Origin: Naganishia liquefaciens
Taxonomy: Eukaryota; Basidiomycota; Tremellomycetes; Filobasidiales; Filobasidiaceae
Assembly: GCA_013423385.1 (NCBI GenBank)
Contig: BLZA01000040.1
Coordinates: 310,001-374,000, forward strand
Reading direction: 5' to 3'
Length of the DNA: 64,000 bases
Below the pieces are notes generated by a model. It searched no databases, had not been told where the DNA came from, and was given only the letters and a program-made list of their open reading frames with translations. Numbering within the stretch: position 1 is the first letter of the stretch; each line of letters opens with the position of its first letter. Of the stretch, positions 2,925-9,236 are shown one piece after another. A program made the translations under genes and the position numbers.

Positions 2925-3879
2925 TCAATGCATGTACCCATGTCGGCCGAACATGGCTTCCCCGACGCCAGCGCCGAGACAAACAGCGATTATGAACCAT
3001 ATATTGAACGTCATCACCACGAGCCTTTGTCAGACTTGTGTCAGCCCAACAGATCGGAAAAAGGGGCGCGGGGAGCGGCAGGAAAGCGCTTACATGAGCA
3101 CGTAGCTGAGAAGCCTCGTGAGAAACATGAGCCCCCCTCGTGCTAGCTCGTTCCGCCAAATAAAGGGGATTGAATACCGGTCCCTTCGGGCCGGGTCCGT
3201 CATGGCGCGGACGACGGTGGCGGGGAGGTACGAAGGCGGGGGTGCCGCGGCGGCTGCGACAGCGGCGGGAGGACGACGGTGGGTGGTCGTGCTGGATGAC
3301 GAGGTACTGTCGTTCCGCGCAGAGAGGACGGGCATGATTTCGTCTTGGGCTAGGGGATCCGTTAGGGGCTTTTCGGCATTGGTACTCGAGGTGGAGGAGG
3401 AGGTGGATGACGAAGGGTCGTACGCTGGGGATGCCTCGAGCGTACGTGCGGGTTGTTTAGAGTCAGTGGCGGAGACGGCGGCGAGTCGACGGAGGGCGCT
3501 GGAAGGATTGTGACGCTCTCGTCAGTCGTGCGAGCGATCCCCGCACTGGAAGGTCATACTCACTCTCGGCGCCAATGAATCGTTGCTCCACGCTGAAGAG
3601 CCGCGAGGAATCGTTCCCCGACGGCCACCACGAACAATCCGATACACGCGCCAATGACGGCACCGACCGAGGAAGGGATCCATGATTGGAATAGCAGGTA
3701 GTCAGTCGAGGGGATTCCGGCGTGGAAATACATCTTCCTGTTTCGGGACCCAAGGATCAGCAGGGCGATATGCGTCACAAGGGCAGAGGGACGTACATGC
3801 CTGCCATGGAGGCCGAATCGCCGCCCATGTCCATGTCCATGTCCGAGTGGCCAGAATGTCGGGGCAGTAGGGCGGTCAT
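2925..3879 (-). CDS. Ctr-family high-affinity copper transporter
   Basis: Four exons (3797-3879, 3564-3737, 3094-3498, 2925-3024) give 253 residues. The short N-terminus has clustered methionines (HSDMDMDMGG, SMAGMKMYFHAG), the extracellular copper-collecting pattern of Ctr proteins. The first membrane helix is SWIPSSVGAVIGACIGLFVV. The second contains LMLVVM, the diagnostic MxxxM, and the third contains LGAGVGEAMFG, the GxxxG packing motif. Helices 1 and 2 are separated by an unusually long cytosolic loop of about 135 residues rich in Ser, Thr, Ala and Pro. The protein ends soon after helix 3 at GRHGYMH, without the Cys-rich tail of some Ctr proteins. It should import Cu(I) as a trimer in the plasma membrane. 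It is divergent from the ferric reductase, which would supply reduced copper. Confidence 0.93.
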
Positions 3880-4121
3880 GGTGTGTTTTGCTGAACGTCA
3901 ACTAGGCTGTGTGAAGAGACACTGTCCATGGAACCTATATACCGGCGCCGTCACCTGGCAGGAAGCTGTCTGGGCGTGGGCTGAGGTGAGACACTTGTCG
4001 CGTATTTCTTGCAGGATCGGGCGCACCCGAGCGCTCACCTCGCTTCTTGCCGTTATATAGCGATGCCCGACCGCTTCTCCCGGTAGAGGGAGGGGCCTCG
4101 AAGCCAACGCACCATCCCACC
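3880..4121. promoter_or_regulatory. Shared divergent promoter of copper transporter and ferric reductase
   Basis: The two start codons are 242 bp apart. TATATA cores lie near 3934 (about 55 bp from the transporter ATG) and near 4054 (about 70 bp from the reductase ATG), one suited to each direction. GTTTTGCTGA at 3885-3894 fits the published fission-yeast Cuf1 copper-responsive consensus D(T/A)DDHGCTGD at every position. It lies only 6 bp from the transporter ATG, so it may fall in a leader. By base composition alone, a match in 242 bp on either strand is expected about one time in five, so this is only suggestive. Confidence 0.5.
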
Positions 4122-6452
4122 ATGTCGCTCGCAGGGCCGCCCGTGATACCCACAGAGCTCCAGACATACGAGTACGTACCGCTATTCCCCTGGTTCCCGT
4201 GGTGATACGGCAACTCATCCCCGCGACTCGCCGCAGCTCATACGCAACAGATCCGAAATACCAGCGATACTATACCTATGCATGGACGGCCCTCGTTGCA
4301 ACCGCCATCCTTGCCTCGGTCCCGTACCTCGTTCGATCATTCGGCAACGGATACTGGCGCAAGGGATACAGCATCGATGAGCGGCTTGGCGAAATGGATG
4401 GAGTGACCGAGGACCGCAAGCCGTTGACGAACAGCAACGACGAACAAGGGGAAAAGTGCTGCACCGAACAGGAAGCGCTCCGAGACGTTCCCATCACGCC
4501 CTCTCCGCCACGACGGTACGCTCCGCACTCCCGGCTCGCCATCTTCCTCTCCGCGTGCACCCAAACAGCATTCAGCGGCACCCTCCCCATCCCGACATTC
4601 ACCCTCACGCCGAGCTTTCTCGCCCGACTCATACGCGAAGGCGGGACACAGCTCGCCGACTGCTGTCGCAAGGGGTACATTGGGCTCACAACGGGTCAGA
4701 TCGTCATTGTCGCAGCCTACACCGCCGGCGTCCTCGTGTGCACGTTGCAAGGCGCCGATCTCGCCTACAATGCCAATCGACCGGGCTTCCTCGCTCTCGC
4801 GCAACTCATCCCCGTCATTCTCCTCTCAACAAAGAACAATCCGCTCGGTCTCGCGCTGGGGCTGGGCTATGAAAAGCTCAACTGGGCGCATCGATGGGCG
4901 GGACGCTTGCTTTGGTTGTGCACAACCCTGCATATGGCGATGTGGACGGACCAGTACCGCCGGACGGGCCAGTTGTCGGTCTTGAAGAGCGAGAAGAACG
5001 TGTACGGAATTGCGGCGTATGCTTTGTTGTGTTGCTTGGCCGTGTTCAGCGTGAGACCAGCAAGGAGGCGGTTCTACGAGGTGTTTTGGTTCTTGCAGTG
5101 AGTCGATGTGCGCGGGTCTGAACGTGGCGACAACTGATGGCAGGAGCGTAGCATGGCGAGCTTTGTCGGTTTCATGGTCACCGTCTGCTACCATACGACT
5201 TATAGCCGACCATGGGTATGGCCATGTGTGGCCCTGTACGGTCTCGAGTGAGTTTCGATGAATCACCTGTGGAGAGCGAGAGGCGTACTCACGTCCATCA
5301 AGTCTGCTGCTCCGGCTGTTCCGATACCGATTCAAGGACGCACTTCTCGTTCCGCTGGACGAAACGATGACAATGGTGAGCTGTACTTCGTTTACGCCTT
5401 TCCCCCGCCTTGCGTTGACCTTTTCATTTTTCAATCTTAGATTCACATCCCTGACTGCGATGCCGGTTGGCTTCCGACGCAGCACATCCACCTCCGGATC
5501 CTCGTCGGCGCGCGCATTTTCGAGTCCCATGCGTTTACAATCACCAATGCGCCTCATTCGGCGCATACGGGCGGTCGTGCCGTCTTGGGTCTCGACGGGC
5601 CGGCGCCAAGGGGGATCACGTTGTATGCCAAGGTGACGGGCGATTGGACGCGCGCCGTGAATGCGCTCGCCTGGGAGCCTGGGTATCGGCTTGCGATCGA
5701 GAGCAAGGATGACGAGGCGGCGGATGTGGTGGCGGGGGATGAGGACCAAGAACTGATGCAGCAGCCGGAAACGGTATCGAACGTCAAGGTCCTGCTGAGT
5801 GGGCCGTATGGCGGATTGAAGCTCGATATGGCGCAGTACCAGAATGTGCTGCTCGTTGCGGGTGGGAGCGGGGTGACATTCATGTTGGGCTGTATCGAGG
5901 AGTGTCTGTTGAGAAAGGCGGACCTGCGGAGGCGCGGGCGCGGACAGGATGGGCCGAGAAAGGTCGAATGCGTGTGGGTCGTGAGGGATATGTGTGAGTT
6001 TGGGTGCTTGTCCGGTAGGCGCGCGCGTATGGCTGAAACTGAGGTTTTGGATATCAGCGACAATCGAAAGCATGTCGGCGACGCTTGCGTACCTGCACAC
6101 CCTTGCGTCCTCTGCCAACGCTTTCCAGCTCATCTACCACCTCTACCTGACAAACCCACCACGCCCGCTTCCTACAGGCCCACCGACATCCCTCCCGCCG
6201 ACAACCACCCTTTCCCCTTACCGGCCATCCATCTCGCAAATCGTGCGCGAATCACTACCACCGCCAACACTACCCGAACTCGAGGCGGGCCAGGGCATGC
6301 GGACGTGCTGTGACCTCGGCGGCATGGCCGTCGTGGCGTGTGGACCCGAGGGGATCGTGACGGAGAGTCGCAACGCCGTAGCGGGTCTCGGCGTCGGAGA
6401 GCGCGTCCGATGCGGCGGGGTCGCGTTCCATGGCGAATGTTATACGCTGTAA
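4122..6452 (+). CDS. Ferric/cupric reductase (FRE family flavocytochrome)
   Basis: Six exons (4122-4171, 4237-5097, 5152-5247, 5303-5375, 5441-5993, 6058-6452) join in frame to 675 residues. An N-terminal helix is followed by the ferric reductase transmembrane domain. The bis-heme histidine pairs are visible as NWAHRWAGRLLWLCTTLHM and FLHMASFVGFMVTVCYH. The cytosolic half carries the FAD region; the usual HPFT motif reads HAFT here (ESHAFTITN). It also carries the NADPH motifs GPYGG, VAGGSGVTFM and CGPEGIV. FRE enzymes pass electrons from NADPH across the plasma membrane to Fe(III) or Cu(II). The head-to-head copper transporter points to a role in copper supply, iron supply or both. The Pro-to-Ala change at the flavin motif is the only oddity in an otherwise complete enzyme. 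Confidence 0.93.
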
Positions 6453-7280
6453 GGGCTTCGTTGTATACCGTACCACCATAGAGGATCCATCGAGGGATCG
6501 ACATCCGTGTGTGTGCTCTGCTGAATCCTCTCCTCTGGATCGGGGCTGAACTCTGGACGCGGATCCAAATTTGAACAGCGGAAATGCCTCATTCGCGTAT
6601 TCTGCAGGTGAAAGTGCCGCGCTTGAGCTGTTTTCGCTGTCATCAGGCTCGCTGGGCGCGCGATATATAGGAGCTCGACTCGTTGTCGTCCCCCCCCCCC
6701 CCCCCGCCCGTATTTGCTTGTCGGCAGTACACCCGCTTCAGAGCACTTGTTGATCCTCTCTTGTTCTCAAAGCAAGTGAGCACGGCTAGGCTCATTCGAG
6801 ATGAAGCAACCGTCGCATTGGCCCTCGAACGCAACTCCTCAAGCATTTCTCGTCAATGGATAGCACCGTGGTCGTCTCTGGCTCATCTTGCGCTCCTAGT
6901 CTCAACGACATCATTCACCCATCGACCTCTGCACTTGGTCCCGCCGTCATCTACTCGATTTGTGGATACTGTTAATACGACAATCGTCATCGTCATACAC
7001 CACCGTTCCTATTCCACCTCCACCATCTCCGACCCTTTGCCATCATTGACTGTCCACTCATCCCTTTCTCCGGTCATCGTACGCCAAAACCCCTCACCAT
7101 CACTCGACATCGACACCGCTCCGACAATAAATCCCTCAACCAACTCTCGCCTCGCCTCGAATCCATTGTAGACGTTTTTACCCAATCACCCTCAAGACGG
7201 ACATCATCACCTCATTCTCCGTCATCCTTGCACAGTCATCTCAAAAGGCCTTTTCGTCAACTGTCGCGTTTTTCTTGCCG

Positions 7281-7401
7281 GTCGGATCGCTGGATGGTTT
7301 CCCACGATGGCGCGAATGCAGCTTGTTCTTCCCACGATGGGCGTCGGAGCGGATGGCGTTCTCACGATGGATTAGTGACCTGTGTCTGGTCCGCACGATG
7401 G
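7281..7401 (+). repeat. Four CACGATGG boxes at about 30 bp spacing
   Basis: The octamer CACGATGG ends at 7310, 7340, 7370 and 7401, so the spacing is 30, 30 and 31 bp. The preceding bases are also similar (TTTCC, CTTCC, GTTCT, GGTCC), while the rest of each 30 bp unit has diverged. The pattern is either an array of sites phased at about three helical turns or the remains of a minisatellite. The first three copies read SHDG in one short open frame, but no protein family is recognisable. Confidence 0.7.
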
Positions 7402-8130
7402 AGGAGGCTGTGCTGCTGGACGGGTGACGGGAATTTGAGACTTGCGGAAAAGTCGGGATGTGAGGTTTGCCGAAGATATTTGGGGAAAGGTACGCTGAGC
7501 ATGCTCAGTCGGGCTTGCGGTAAGCTTTCCCGCTTGGTCTTTCTGTGCGTGAAGCGTGGGCCGCGTCAGCTTGCGTGTGCCGTGGAAGGATGATATGGCG
7601 CGGTTGGTCAGCGCGGACAAGCTTTGGGCGGCCGCAGGGAATGAATGTGCAGGAGCGCCGGCAACGCGGGAAGTGCGAAATTCGTATTCTCAGGGAGATT
7701 GGTCGTGTGCACAGAGAAGATCGCACGAGAAAGCGTAAGAGACAGCGGATAGTCTGCACCGGGAGGGTTGGAGCAGCAGCAAAGTTTGCGAATGGGCAGA
7801 ATTCTGTGAACGCTCTCCAGCACGAATGGCTCAACCACGTAGGCATGTCGGTAAGTTTTCTTATTCGCTAGCCGTGAGGCCTGAGTACGGGGTGGTTGTA
7901 AGGAAGGAGACCGAGGCGGCGTCGAGCAGCAGCTGTGAATGACAGCAGCGTAACTGGAGAATCCTCCCTATGCAAGTATCCCATTCATTCATCTCCCTTT
8001 CTGCTGGACGACCTGTCGCGTATTTTTTCGCGGCGATCGCTTGGCGCGCGCGGAGGTGCCCCGAACGAAAAATACCCGGACAGAAAGGCAGGCTGCTGGT
8101 CCAGACAATTCAATGAATGGTTCAGACCCG

Positions 8131-8142
8131 ATAGATATATAG
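8131..8142 (+). promoter_or_regulatory. TATA element before Bim1-like gene
   Basis: The sequence ATAGATATATAG lies about 75 bp before the ATG at 8215, the usual distance for a fungal core promoter. It supports a short leader for the Bim1-like gene rather than one reaching back into the pyrimidine-rich tract. Confidence 0.45.
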
Positions 8143-8214
8143 ACATCACAGTTCACTCGTCGTCGGTTCACGCTCTCTCCAGCATCTATTCCCTGCATCA
8201 TTCAACCTCACGCC

Positions 8215-9236
8215 ATGTTCGCTCAATCCCTCCTCGTTCCTTTGCTCGTAGCCTCGTCGGCTCTCGCTCACTACACCTTGGACTACCCCGTGAGCCTTGG
8301 CCCCTCTCGCCCTACTGCTGCACCTCATTCCTTGTTCCTTGTTCTGACGACGTTTGAATGTTTAGCCCAGTCGAGGATTCGTCGATGAGGACGAAGTCAA
8401 GGTACGCTGCCTCGCTTGCGTCTTCCATACAGCAATGAACTTACGCGCGTGGTGGTCTTGTAATGTGTAGTTCTGCGGCGGTTTCTCCTCTCCCTCGTCC
8501 ATGCGAACACCTTTCCCGCTGACCGGCAACGGTCCAGGTGAGCAGAGCGTTTCATCATTTGGTACGTACGAGTTGGCTGATAGTTTCTCTCTGCTTCCCA
8601 TAGTCCAATGGGACTCTCACCACGCGATCGGAACGGTCGGAATCTACGTCTCTACCTCGGAGAACCCGACCAACTGGTCCGACTTTAGCTCGACTATGGC
8701 CAAGAACTGGTTTACTGTTCGTATGAGAGTATCTGTGCACGGCCCTTAATTACTGATGCGCCCTTCTCGCGACTAGGGCCCGAACGGAGCTGCGTGCACC
8801 AACATTGACATGTCGCAATTGAACATGAACCTGACGAATGGTTCCCTCGTGACCATTCAGATGGTTGCCAACGGTGTATGTACAGCTCTTGAAACAGTTC
8901 GGGGCCGCACACCAATGACTCATCTCTCATCAACAGGGCGACGGAAACCTGTACCAATGCGCCGATCTCATCCTCCTCGAAGGCTACACCGCCCCGTCCA
9001 ACGAAACCTGCTCCAACGACGTCTCCCTCGCTTCCAACGCCACCGCCACGGCTACGCCTTCCCTCGGACAGAGCGCATCGGCAACGTCAACGGGCGCATC
9101 GATGACGATGGGCTCTGCGACGGGTGCTGCGGCGTCGGCTTCGGCTTCGCCAACCAGCGGGGCGTTCAGGGGTGAAGTTGTCGGAGCTTTCTTGGCCTTT
9201 GCTATGGCTGCTGCCGGTCTGAGCGTCGCCTTGTAA
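8215..9236 (+). CDS. X325/Bim1-like secreted copper-binding protein (GPI-anchored)
   Basis: Six exons (8215-8289, 8366-8401, 8471-8537, 8604-8716, 8777-8875, 8937-9236) give 229 residues. A signal peptide ends in SSALA, so the mature protein begins with histidine (HYTLDYPPSRGF), as in LPMO-like X325 proteins, whose N-terminal histidine binds copper. Other family features are FCGGF, the conserved RTPFPLTG, and DSHH in the region where a second histidine ligand is expected. The C-terminus is a Ser/Thr/Ala stalk ending in a hydrophobic stretch (VGAFLAFAMAAAGLSVAL), which implies a GPI anchor. Cryptococcus Bim1 of this family helps Ctr1 take up copper when it is scarce. The exon 4 donor is uncertain: GTTCGT at 8717 or GTATCT downstream are both in phase. 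Confidence 0.85.

Follow-up and report, generated by a model that had tools for sequence, protein, structure and literature searches.

A probable copper-acquisition module of adjacent Ctr, metalloreductase and X325/Bim1-like genes in Naganishia

The basidiomycete yeast Naganishia liquefaciens (Tremellomycetes, Filobasidiales) carries, side by side in a single 6.3-kb block, genes for a Ctr-family copper transporter (CTR), a member of the ferric/cupric reductase family (FRE) and an X325/Bim1-like protein (X325). The block (positions 2925-9236, limits that match those of a first-pass annotation of the same DNA) lies in a stretch of 64,000 nucleotides of contig BLZA01000040.1 (assembly GCA_013423385.1, positions 310,001 to 374,000 of the forward strand), which is the whole DNA analysed here and is called the window. 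We consider it quite likely that in Naganishia these three genes make up a module for acquiring copper at the cell surface. The reading builds on the families to which the proteins belong, on ligand and haem residues that are all in place, on the fold of X325, on the layout of the locus and on its linkage across the genus.

Three intact genes of copper-handling families

Gene models were built by placing GT-AG introns of 55-76 bp by hand. Each of the three is open from ATG to stop, with no internal stop after intron removal, and all three proteins score above the Pfam thresholds, with the residues that bind copper or haem intact. Gene models, Pfam matches and located motifs thus confirm the earlier description of three adjacent genes with Ctr, FRE and Bim1-like motifs:

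2925..3879, minus strand: CTR, Ctr-family copper transporter, 253 amino acids (PF04145, E 7.5e-33); four exons, 3879-3797, 3737-3564, 3498-3094 and 3024-2925
3880..4121, between genes: shared CTR/FRE divergent promoter, 242 bp, from the gene models
4122..6452, plus strand: FRE, ferric/cupric reductase family, six exons, 672 amino acids (PF01794, PF08030, PF08022)
6453..8214, between genes: FRE-X325 intergenic region, 1,762 bp, from the gene models
8215..9236, plus strand: X325/Bim1-like gene, six exons, 229 amino acids (PF20238, E 8.8e-25)

CTR and FRE are divergent, head to head, with start codons 242 bp apart, and FRE and X325 run in the same direction across a gap of 1,762 bp. CTR scores 114.6 bits against PF04145 (cut-off 25.3) and covers profile positions 1-151 of 151. 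Its N-terminus is Met-rich, the MxxxM motif is MLVVM in the second transmembrane segment and the GxxxG motif is GAGVG in the third; the motif Met and Gly columns are unchanged across all eight aligned sequences. The database protein NliqN6_5653 of N. liquefaciens equals CTR at 100% identity over its full length. From these features the product would be a Cu(I) transporter.

FRE has the full domain set of its family: Ferric_reduct (PF01794, E 2.9e-26), NAD_binding_6 (PF08030, E 9.9e-11) and FAD_binding_8 (PF08022, E 4.5e-5). The four haem histidines were located in HRWAGR...TLH and FLH...CYH, and the NADPH motifs are GPYGG, GGSGVTF and ACGPEG. The FAD motif at 5528-5539 is HAFT, not HPFT, and so departs from the HPxT form, which is common but not obligatory; the FAD domain still passes Pfam, and because the domain set is complete we assign FRE to the family despite HAFT. 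All three Naganishia rows of the FRE alignment have HAFT or HALT and the remaining 11 of 11 have HPFT or HPLT, which looks like a genus-specific, unexplained change. NliqN6_5654 is presumably the database counterpart of FRE, as the species' own FRE was not among the homolog matches. The substrate is probably Cu(II). A midpoint-rooted tree of 14 rows (13 of the 76 matches plus the window FRE) places Naganishia in one clade beside other tremellomycetes, with Agaricomycetes outside, and indicates that FRE descent is vertical. Horizontal transfer was rejected for FRE on this tree; the closest CTR and X325 matches, judged without a tree, are likewise tremellomycetes.

X325 scores 88.2 bits against PF20238 (BIM1-like_dom; cut-off 27). 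Its signal peptide, judged by eye, ends at ALA before HYTLDYP, so that the first mature residue is apparently His, and by eye a Ser/Thr/Ala-rich stretch followed by a hydrophobic end forms a putative glycosylphosphatidylinositol (GPI) tail. The predicted copper ligands are His1, the second His of DSHHA and the Asp of GGDGN. These residues (His19, His66 and Asp132 in precursor numbering) are unchanged in 33 of 33 aligned homologs picked from 55 matches. In Bim1 and LaX325 the copper site is described as a His brace that includes the N-terminus together with an Asp on a Gly-rich loop, and Bim1 as having no redox activity, with copper release sped by peroxide (PMC7529816). The LaX325 copper protein (6ibh) aligns with X325 at E 2.3e-21. 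A predicted structure of the N. albida ortholog has a mean predicted local distance difference test score of 76.7, with most of the core above 85 and a low-scoring tail. Its top Foldseek match in the PDB is again LaX325 (E 1.4e-12, root-mean-square deviation 1.9, TMt 0.85, 39% identity), and lytic polysaccharide monooxygenases come next in the ranking at E 4e-5 or worse. By sequence and predicted fold, X325 is thus nearest to the LaX325 copper protein. The corresponding database entry, NliqN6_5655, retains one 66-bp intron as coding.

Linkage across Naganishia

The first-pass annotation had proposed that the three genes form a physically linked copper-acquisition set, and linkage in all four testable Naganishia species bears this out. 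Linkage was judged from locus tags and from agreement in the size of the homologs' contigs, comparing only the best homologs returned, so that a linked paralog could escape. An X325 match was obtained in seven Naganishia species and a second trio member was returned for four, three of them besides the window's own; in each the contigs are of equal length:

N. liquefaciens: CTR 5653, X325 5655 (locus tags)
N. albida: CTR 1892, X325 1894 (locus tags)
N. friedmannii: CTR 3333, FRE 3334, X325 3335 (locus tags)
N. adeliensis: X325 5324, FRE 5325 (locus tags)

Within the genus, CTR identity is 56-62% and FRE identity 60-75%.

The gene-order check in other tremellomycetes gave the opposite outcome: none of the 13 testable species outside the genus showed linkage, their best homologs lying on contigs that differ in length. 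These are Kwoniella dejecticola, Kwoniella sp. CBS 9459, K. newhampshirensis, K. dendrophila, Kwoniella sp. DSM 27419, Kwoniella sp. CBS 6097, Cryptococcus sp. DSM 104549 and DSM 104548, Cryptotrichosporon argae, Tremellales sp. Uapishka_1, Naematelia encephala, Papiliotrema laurentii and Saitozyma podzolica. All three members could be placed in Kwoniella sp. CBS 9459 and N. encephala, and two or three in the others. The Uapishka_1 assembly is fragmented, the assemblies of Naematelia and Papiliotrema were assigned from the species name, and each S. podzolica row stands for three sequences, so that the contig shown may belong to another member. The count leaves aside Filobasidium floriforme, Kwoniella heveanensis, Cryptococcus depauperatus and C. 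neoformans (whose members carry tags of different strains or assemblies), K. bestiolae (where X325 matched a distant paralog and FRE is on another contig), the agaricomycete Rickenella mellea (CTR and FRE on different contigs) and species with a single family, including N. vaughanmartiniae, N. onofrii and N. cerealis, which gave an X325 match only. As far as these comparisons reach, linkage appears confined to Naganishia. The original proposal named as its refutation that every relative lacks the linkage and that the genes also lack a shared response to copper or iron; this outcome did not arise, because the Naganishia relatives are linked.

Adjacency of the three families is not a product of chance, since each has few loci in the genome. 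A six-frame genome scan, which sees exons singly and therefore yields lower bounds, found at least two Ctr loci including the clustered CTR, and at least seven FRE matches, which fall at six places when two neighbouring ones on contig C10 are counted once. One X325 with an N-terminal His was found, the clustered copy. An X325 paralog on contig C3 (locus L021, 3005-3658) is PF20238-positive and has no His after the signal region, so it is unlikely from its sequence to form a histidine brace; an X325-like match on contig C5 (E 0.004) spans only the C-terminal part of the query. The second Ctr (C20:495,926-496,309, on the same contig as the window; MLWN...TCVVF...WHI) has a putatively Ctr2-like sequence, and on that likeness the clustered CTR may be the sole plasma-membrane importer. 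With two Ctr, six FRE and two X325-like loci and an assumed 6,500-7,500 genes, chance alone would give about 3e-6 such triples within three consecutive genes.

Counterparts in other fungi

The same three gene types adjoin one another in Aspergillus fumigatus, where a GPI protein, a Ctr and a metalloreductase (Afu6g02800-02810-02820) were reported in 2008 as adjacent and co-induced, being raised together in hyphae in response to neutrophils (PMC2481287). The deletants were menadione-sensitive, and the triple deletant grew without reduction on iron-limited medium (PMC2481287). Afu6g02800 is the listed match of Pseudogymnoascus destructans VC83_07867 (PMC5810475), which is named a Bim1-like protein (PMC12113139); by these two steps we infer that Afu6g02800 is itself Bim1-like. 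The A. fumigatus and Naganishia trios are likened here by description, not by sequence comparison. A. fumigatus is an ascomycete, and its order by tags is Bim1-like, Ctr, FRE, with Ctr in the middle, whereas FRE is in the middle in Naganishia.

Pairs of two of the genes are known more widely. In Aspergillus nidulans, ctrA and freC share one common Mac1-bound promoter, and of 127 species that have a CtrA ortholog, a list that may include basidiomycetes, 110 keep a Ctr and a metalloreductase together (PMC7705104). Fusarium oxysporum has the divergent Ctr-FRE pairs ctr3-fre9 and ctr1b-fre12 with Mac1 sites (PMC11563359). As in Naganishia, Ctr and FRE sit on one promoter in both fungi, divergence being stated for F. 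oxysporum; unlike in Naganishia, no X325 is named in the available parts of these texts, and regulation is by Mac1, whose TTTGCTC site is missing from the intergenic DNA of the Naganishia trio. In P. destructans, BLP2 (VC83_03095) and an FRE (VC83_03096) are both induced by copper withholding (PMC12113139). Their tags are consecutive, a Naganishia-like arrangement, but the Ctr genes are distant (VC83_00191 and VC83_04814).

Cbi1/Bim1 and Ctr1 of Cryptococcus neoformans form a copper import complex (PMC9258870, PMC7529816). It draws on the same families, and the C. neoformans protein P0010 is 56% identical to X325 over 72% of X325 length. Unlike in Naganishia, the placeable best X325, FRE and Ctr homologs of other Cryptococcus and Kwoniella genomes lie on different contigs. 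The first-pass remark that the arrangement was not known to be described therefore holds only in part: in the open-licence literature searched we saw no basidiomycete described as having the trio, but the trio is known from A. fumigatus and Ctr-FRE pairs from A. nidulans and Fusarium. The novelty is modest, a basidiomycete example of an arrangement known from an ascomycete.

Promoters and candidate regulators

A correctly oriented TATATAG lies 55-80 bp before the ATG of each trio gene, and four of the window's seven copies fall within the trio's 2,004 intergenic bases, a count made post hoc. The candidate elements are as follows:

3935..3941, minus strand: TATATAG upstream of the CTR ATG at 3879, candidate TATA box
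3998..4006, plus strand: TCGCGTATT, first copy, weak candidate shared element
4054..4060, plus strand: TATATAG upstream of the FRE ATG at 4122, candidate TATA box
6582..6591, plus strand: AAATGCCTCA, match to WAAKGSCKCR, the only one in the trio's intergenic DNA
6593..6601, plus strand: TCGCGTATT, second copy, weak candidate shared element
6664..6670, plus strand: TATATAG, fourth copy, 82 bp after the start of the AAATGCCTCA site
7496..7507, either strand: TGAGCATGCTCA, palindrome of two inverted TGCTCA (Mac1-type) half-sites, comprising two overlapping DHNTGCTCA matches
8016..8024, plus strand: TCGCGTATT, third copy, upstream of X325, weak candidate shared element
8136..8142, plus strand: TATATAG, 79 bp upstream of the X325 ATG, candidate TATA box

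One copper-fist factor scores above the cut-off in the genome, on contig C9 (C9:127,711-127,824; 81.5 bits), and a second match falls below it; the C9 factor contains KKGRP along with several Cys-rich stretches. C. neoformans likewise has just one such factor, Cuf1 (PMC13343922). The shared promoter, a TATATAG for each gene and a single clear Cuf1-like factor make co-regulation plausible.

Several observations nevertheless weigh against the module, and most concern regulation. WAAKGSCKCR, the consensus of the Cryptococcus Cuf1 copper-responsive element (CuRE; PMC7961099), has no match in the 242-bp divergent promoter, although it is a Cryptococcus consensus and the Naganishia element may differ. 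The window as a whole has seven matches against 3.88 expected, which is not above chance. The word AAATGCCTCA occurs 46 times genome-wide against 13 for its backwards control and is thus over-represented. SOD (superoxide dismutase) genes of Cryptococcus have CuREs. The exact word AAATGCCTCA, the sole word tried, is not near the Mn-SOD or the Cu/Zn-SOD gene, and was dropped on that account as the CuRE of this species. The Mac1 site TTTGCTC is in neither intergenic region. Nor does the divergent promoter contain the Fusarium Mac1 consensus DHNTGCTCA, which is no commoner in the window than chance predicts (23 against 24.4 expected). A regulatory word shared by the two intergenic regions was likewise rejected. 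The 12-mer TGTCGCGTATTT, with core TCGCGTATT, is common to both, but a shared word of at least 12 also turned up in 19 of 500 shuffles, in 21 of the 212 segments drawn from elsewhere in the window and in 14 of the 88 drawn from eight other loci, and a 9-mer with at least three copies in 67 of 1008 segments of the same geometry. Genome-wide, TCGCGTATT occurs 94 times against 78 for its backwards control, and the 11-mer GTCGCGTATTT seven times against six. Judged by published elements, then, the trio promoters do not look like those of a copper-regulated (Cuf1/Mac1) cluster, the consensuses being those of other fungi.

Two further points on the same side come from other loci. An FRE locus on contig C17 has four CuRE-consensus matches in 7 kb against 0.5 expected, a number reached in none of 200 shuffles, and is the richest of eight 7-kb loci compared; on sequence grounds the C17 FRE, not the trio FRE, may be the copper-regulated reductase. 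Under high copper, A. fumigatus ctrA2 (Afu6g02810) goes down 4.85-fold, and Afu6g02820 is among the metalloreductases raised more in the wild type than in the aceA deletant (PMC8425704). Because Ctr and reductase differ in this response, the known trio is not uniformly co-regulated.

The C17 matches lie at 2058-2580 of locus L024 (G000:C17:1036557-1037079), putatively upstream of the FRE gene, and two of them, set 52 bp apart next to a TATA-like stretch, are copies of AAATGCCTCA in inverted orientation. TGAGCATGCTCA occurs at three places in the genome and is a post hoc candidate element. DDDHGCTGD, presumably a fission-yeast-type copper element, has two matches in the divergent promoter, five in the FRE-X325 region and 162 in the window against 136 expected, and is too short to inform.

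Alternative readings of the locus

The best surviving alternative is that CTR and FRE alone are a functional, co-regulated pair and X325 a historical neighbour under separate regulation. We regard this as unlikely. The CTR-FRE gap is a divergent 242 bp against 1,762 bp between FRE and X325, the two-gene arrangement is the one known in A. nidulans and F. oxysporum, and the words common to both intergenic regions are no better than genomic background. However, X325 adjoins the pair in every testable Naganishia species, the genome scan found no His-brace X325 other than the clustered copy, and all three genes of the A. fumigatus trio are reported to rise together (PMC2481287).

Slow rearrangement within one genus could also keep unrelated neighbours together, in which case the Naganishia linkage would be passive. 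Every linked case found by tags does belong to one genus, and plain shared ancestry may account for part of the linkage; this too counts against the module. We nonetheless think passive linkage improbable as the whole explanation: protein identity within the genus falls to the 56-62% (CTR) and 60-75% (FRE) given above, three small families would rarely adjoin by chance, and the same trio is described in A. fumigatus.

Least probable of all is a module for reductive iron uptake, iron-responsive, in which FRE would reduce Fe(III) and Ctr would feed copper to a Fet3-type oxidase. FRE-family enzymes reduce copper and iron alike, and databases label many FRE homologs as ferric-chelate reductase or iron reductase. 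Against this, the adjoining genes are a Sel1-repeat gene and ORC2 (FTR1 and multicopper oxidases were not searched for elsewhere), the iron-type element HGATAR is missing from the divergent promoter and occurs once in the 1,762-bp region (a count with no chance control), and iron-limited growth of the A. fumigatus triple deletant was not reduced (PMC2481287); nothing in the analysis supports the iron half of the first-pass title, which had called the locus a copper/iron uptake cluster.

The copper-acquisition module thus remains the reading we favour, and the locus is probably such a module. Transport, the reductase substrate, contact between Ctr and X325 and co-regulation of the trio would follow a scheme of this kind. 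FRE would reduce Cu(II) outside the cell, the histidine brace of GPI-anchored X325 would bind Cu(II) from the wall or the extracellular space and then pass it on or release it, and the Ctr trimer would import Cu(I). CTR and FRE would be driven by the one 242-bp divergent promoter and X325 by its own TATA promoter, and the one clear copper-fist (Cuf1-like) factor of the genome would most likely induce all three when copper is scarce.

Flanking genes and the FRE-X325 region

The trio is flanked by the Sel1-repeat gene and ORC2, for neither of which do we know of a copper role. The region 6453-8214 may still contain an additional coding gene, but the search for one gave no support: of five long open reading frames tested none exceeds a Pfam cut-off, and one gives a sub-cut-off chance match (E 0.024). 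The region has 13-15 stops per plus frame and 18-20 per minus frame, against a uniform-codon estimate of 27.5 that is uncorrected for base composition. Just 3' of the FRE stop and far from the X325 ATG, AAATGCCTCA (6582), TCGCGTATT (6593) and TATATAG (6664) stand in a row; it is possible that this row, in 6560-8000, marks an unannotated transcript or an upstream X325 start.

At 6690-6709 lies a stretch of about 20 nt that is almost all C. CACGATGG occurs four times in 7303-7401 at a spacing of 30-31 bp, a repeat not among the Tandem Repeats Finder output, and three of the copies translate as SHDG within an open reading frame of 205 amino acids. The window total is six against 2.6 expected, a number reached in three of 100 shuffles.

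Evolution and significance

The trio was either assembled on the way to Naganishia, or is ancestral and was broken up in other lineages. Tentatively, and at less than even confidence, we entertain an independent assembly in Filobasidiales and in Ascomycota, from genes that stand apart in the tested Cryptococcus and Kwoniella genomes. If this is true, gene order would by itself be natural evidence that the reductase, the histidine-brace catcher and the channel work together. Of about equal interest would be the alternative, in which Naganishia kept a trio that dates back to the Dikarya ancestor and that other tremellomycetes broke up.

How Bim1/Cbi1 hands copper over to Ctr1, and what part any dedicated reductase plays, is the question on which the locus bears; the mechanism of action of Cbi1 has been called unknown (PMC9258870). 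N. liquefaciens is a yeast with few paralogs. Its one 6.3-kb block brings together the sole His-brace X325 found, one of two Ctr loci and one of six FRE loci, and so names a candidate partner reductase. It also supplies a basidiomycete case of a trio that we have otherwise seen described only in an ascomycete.

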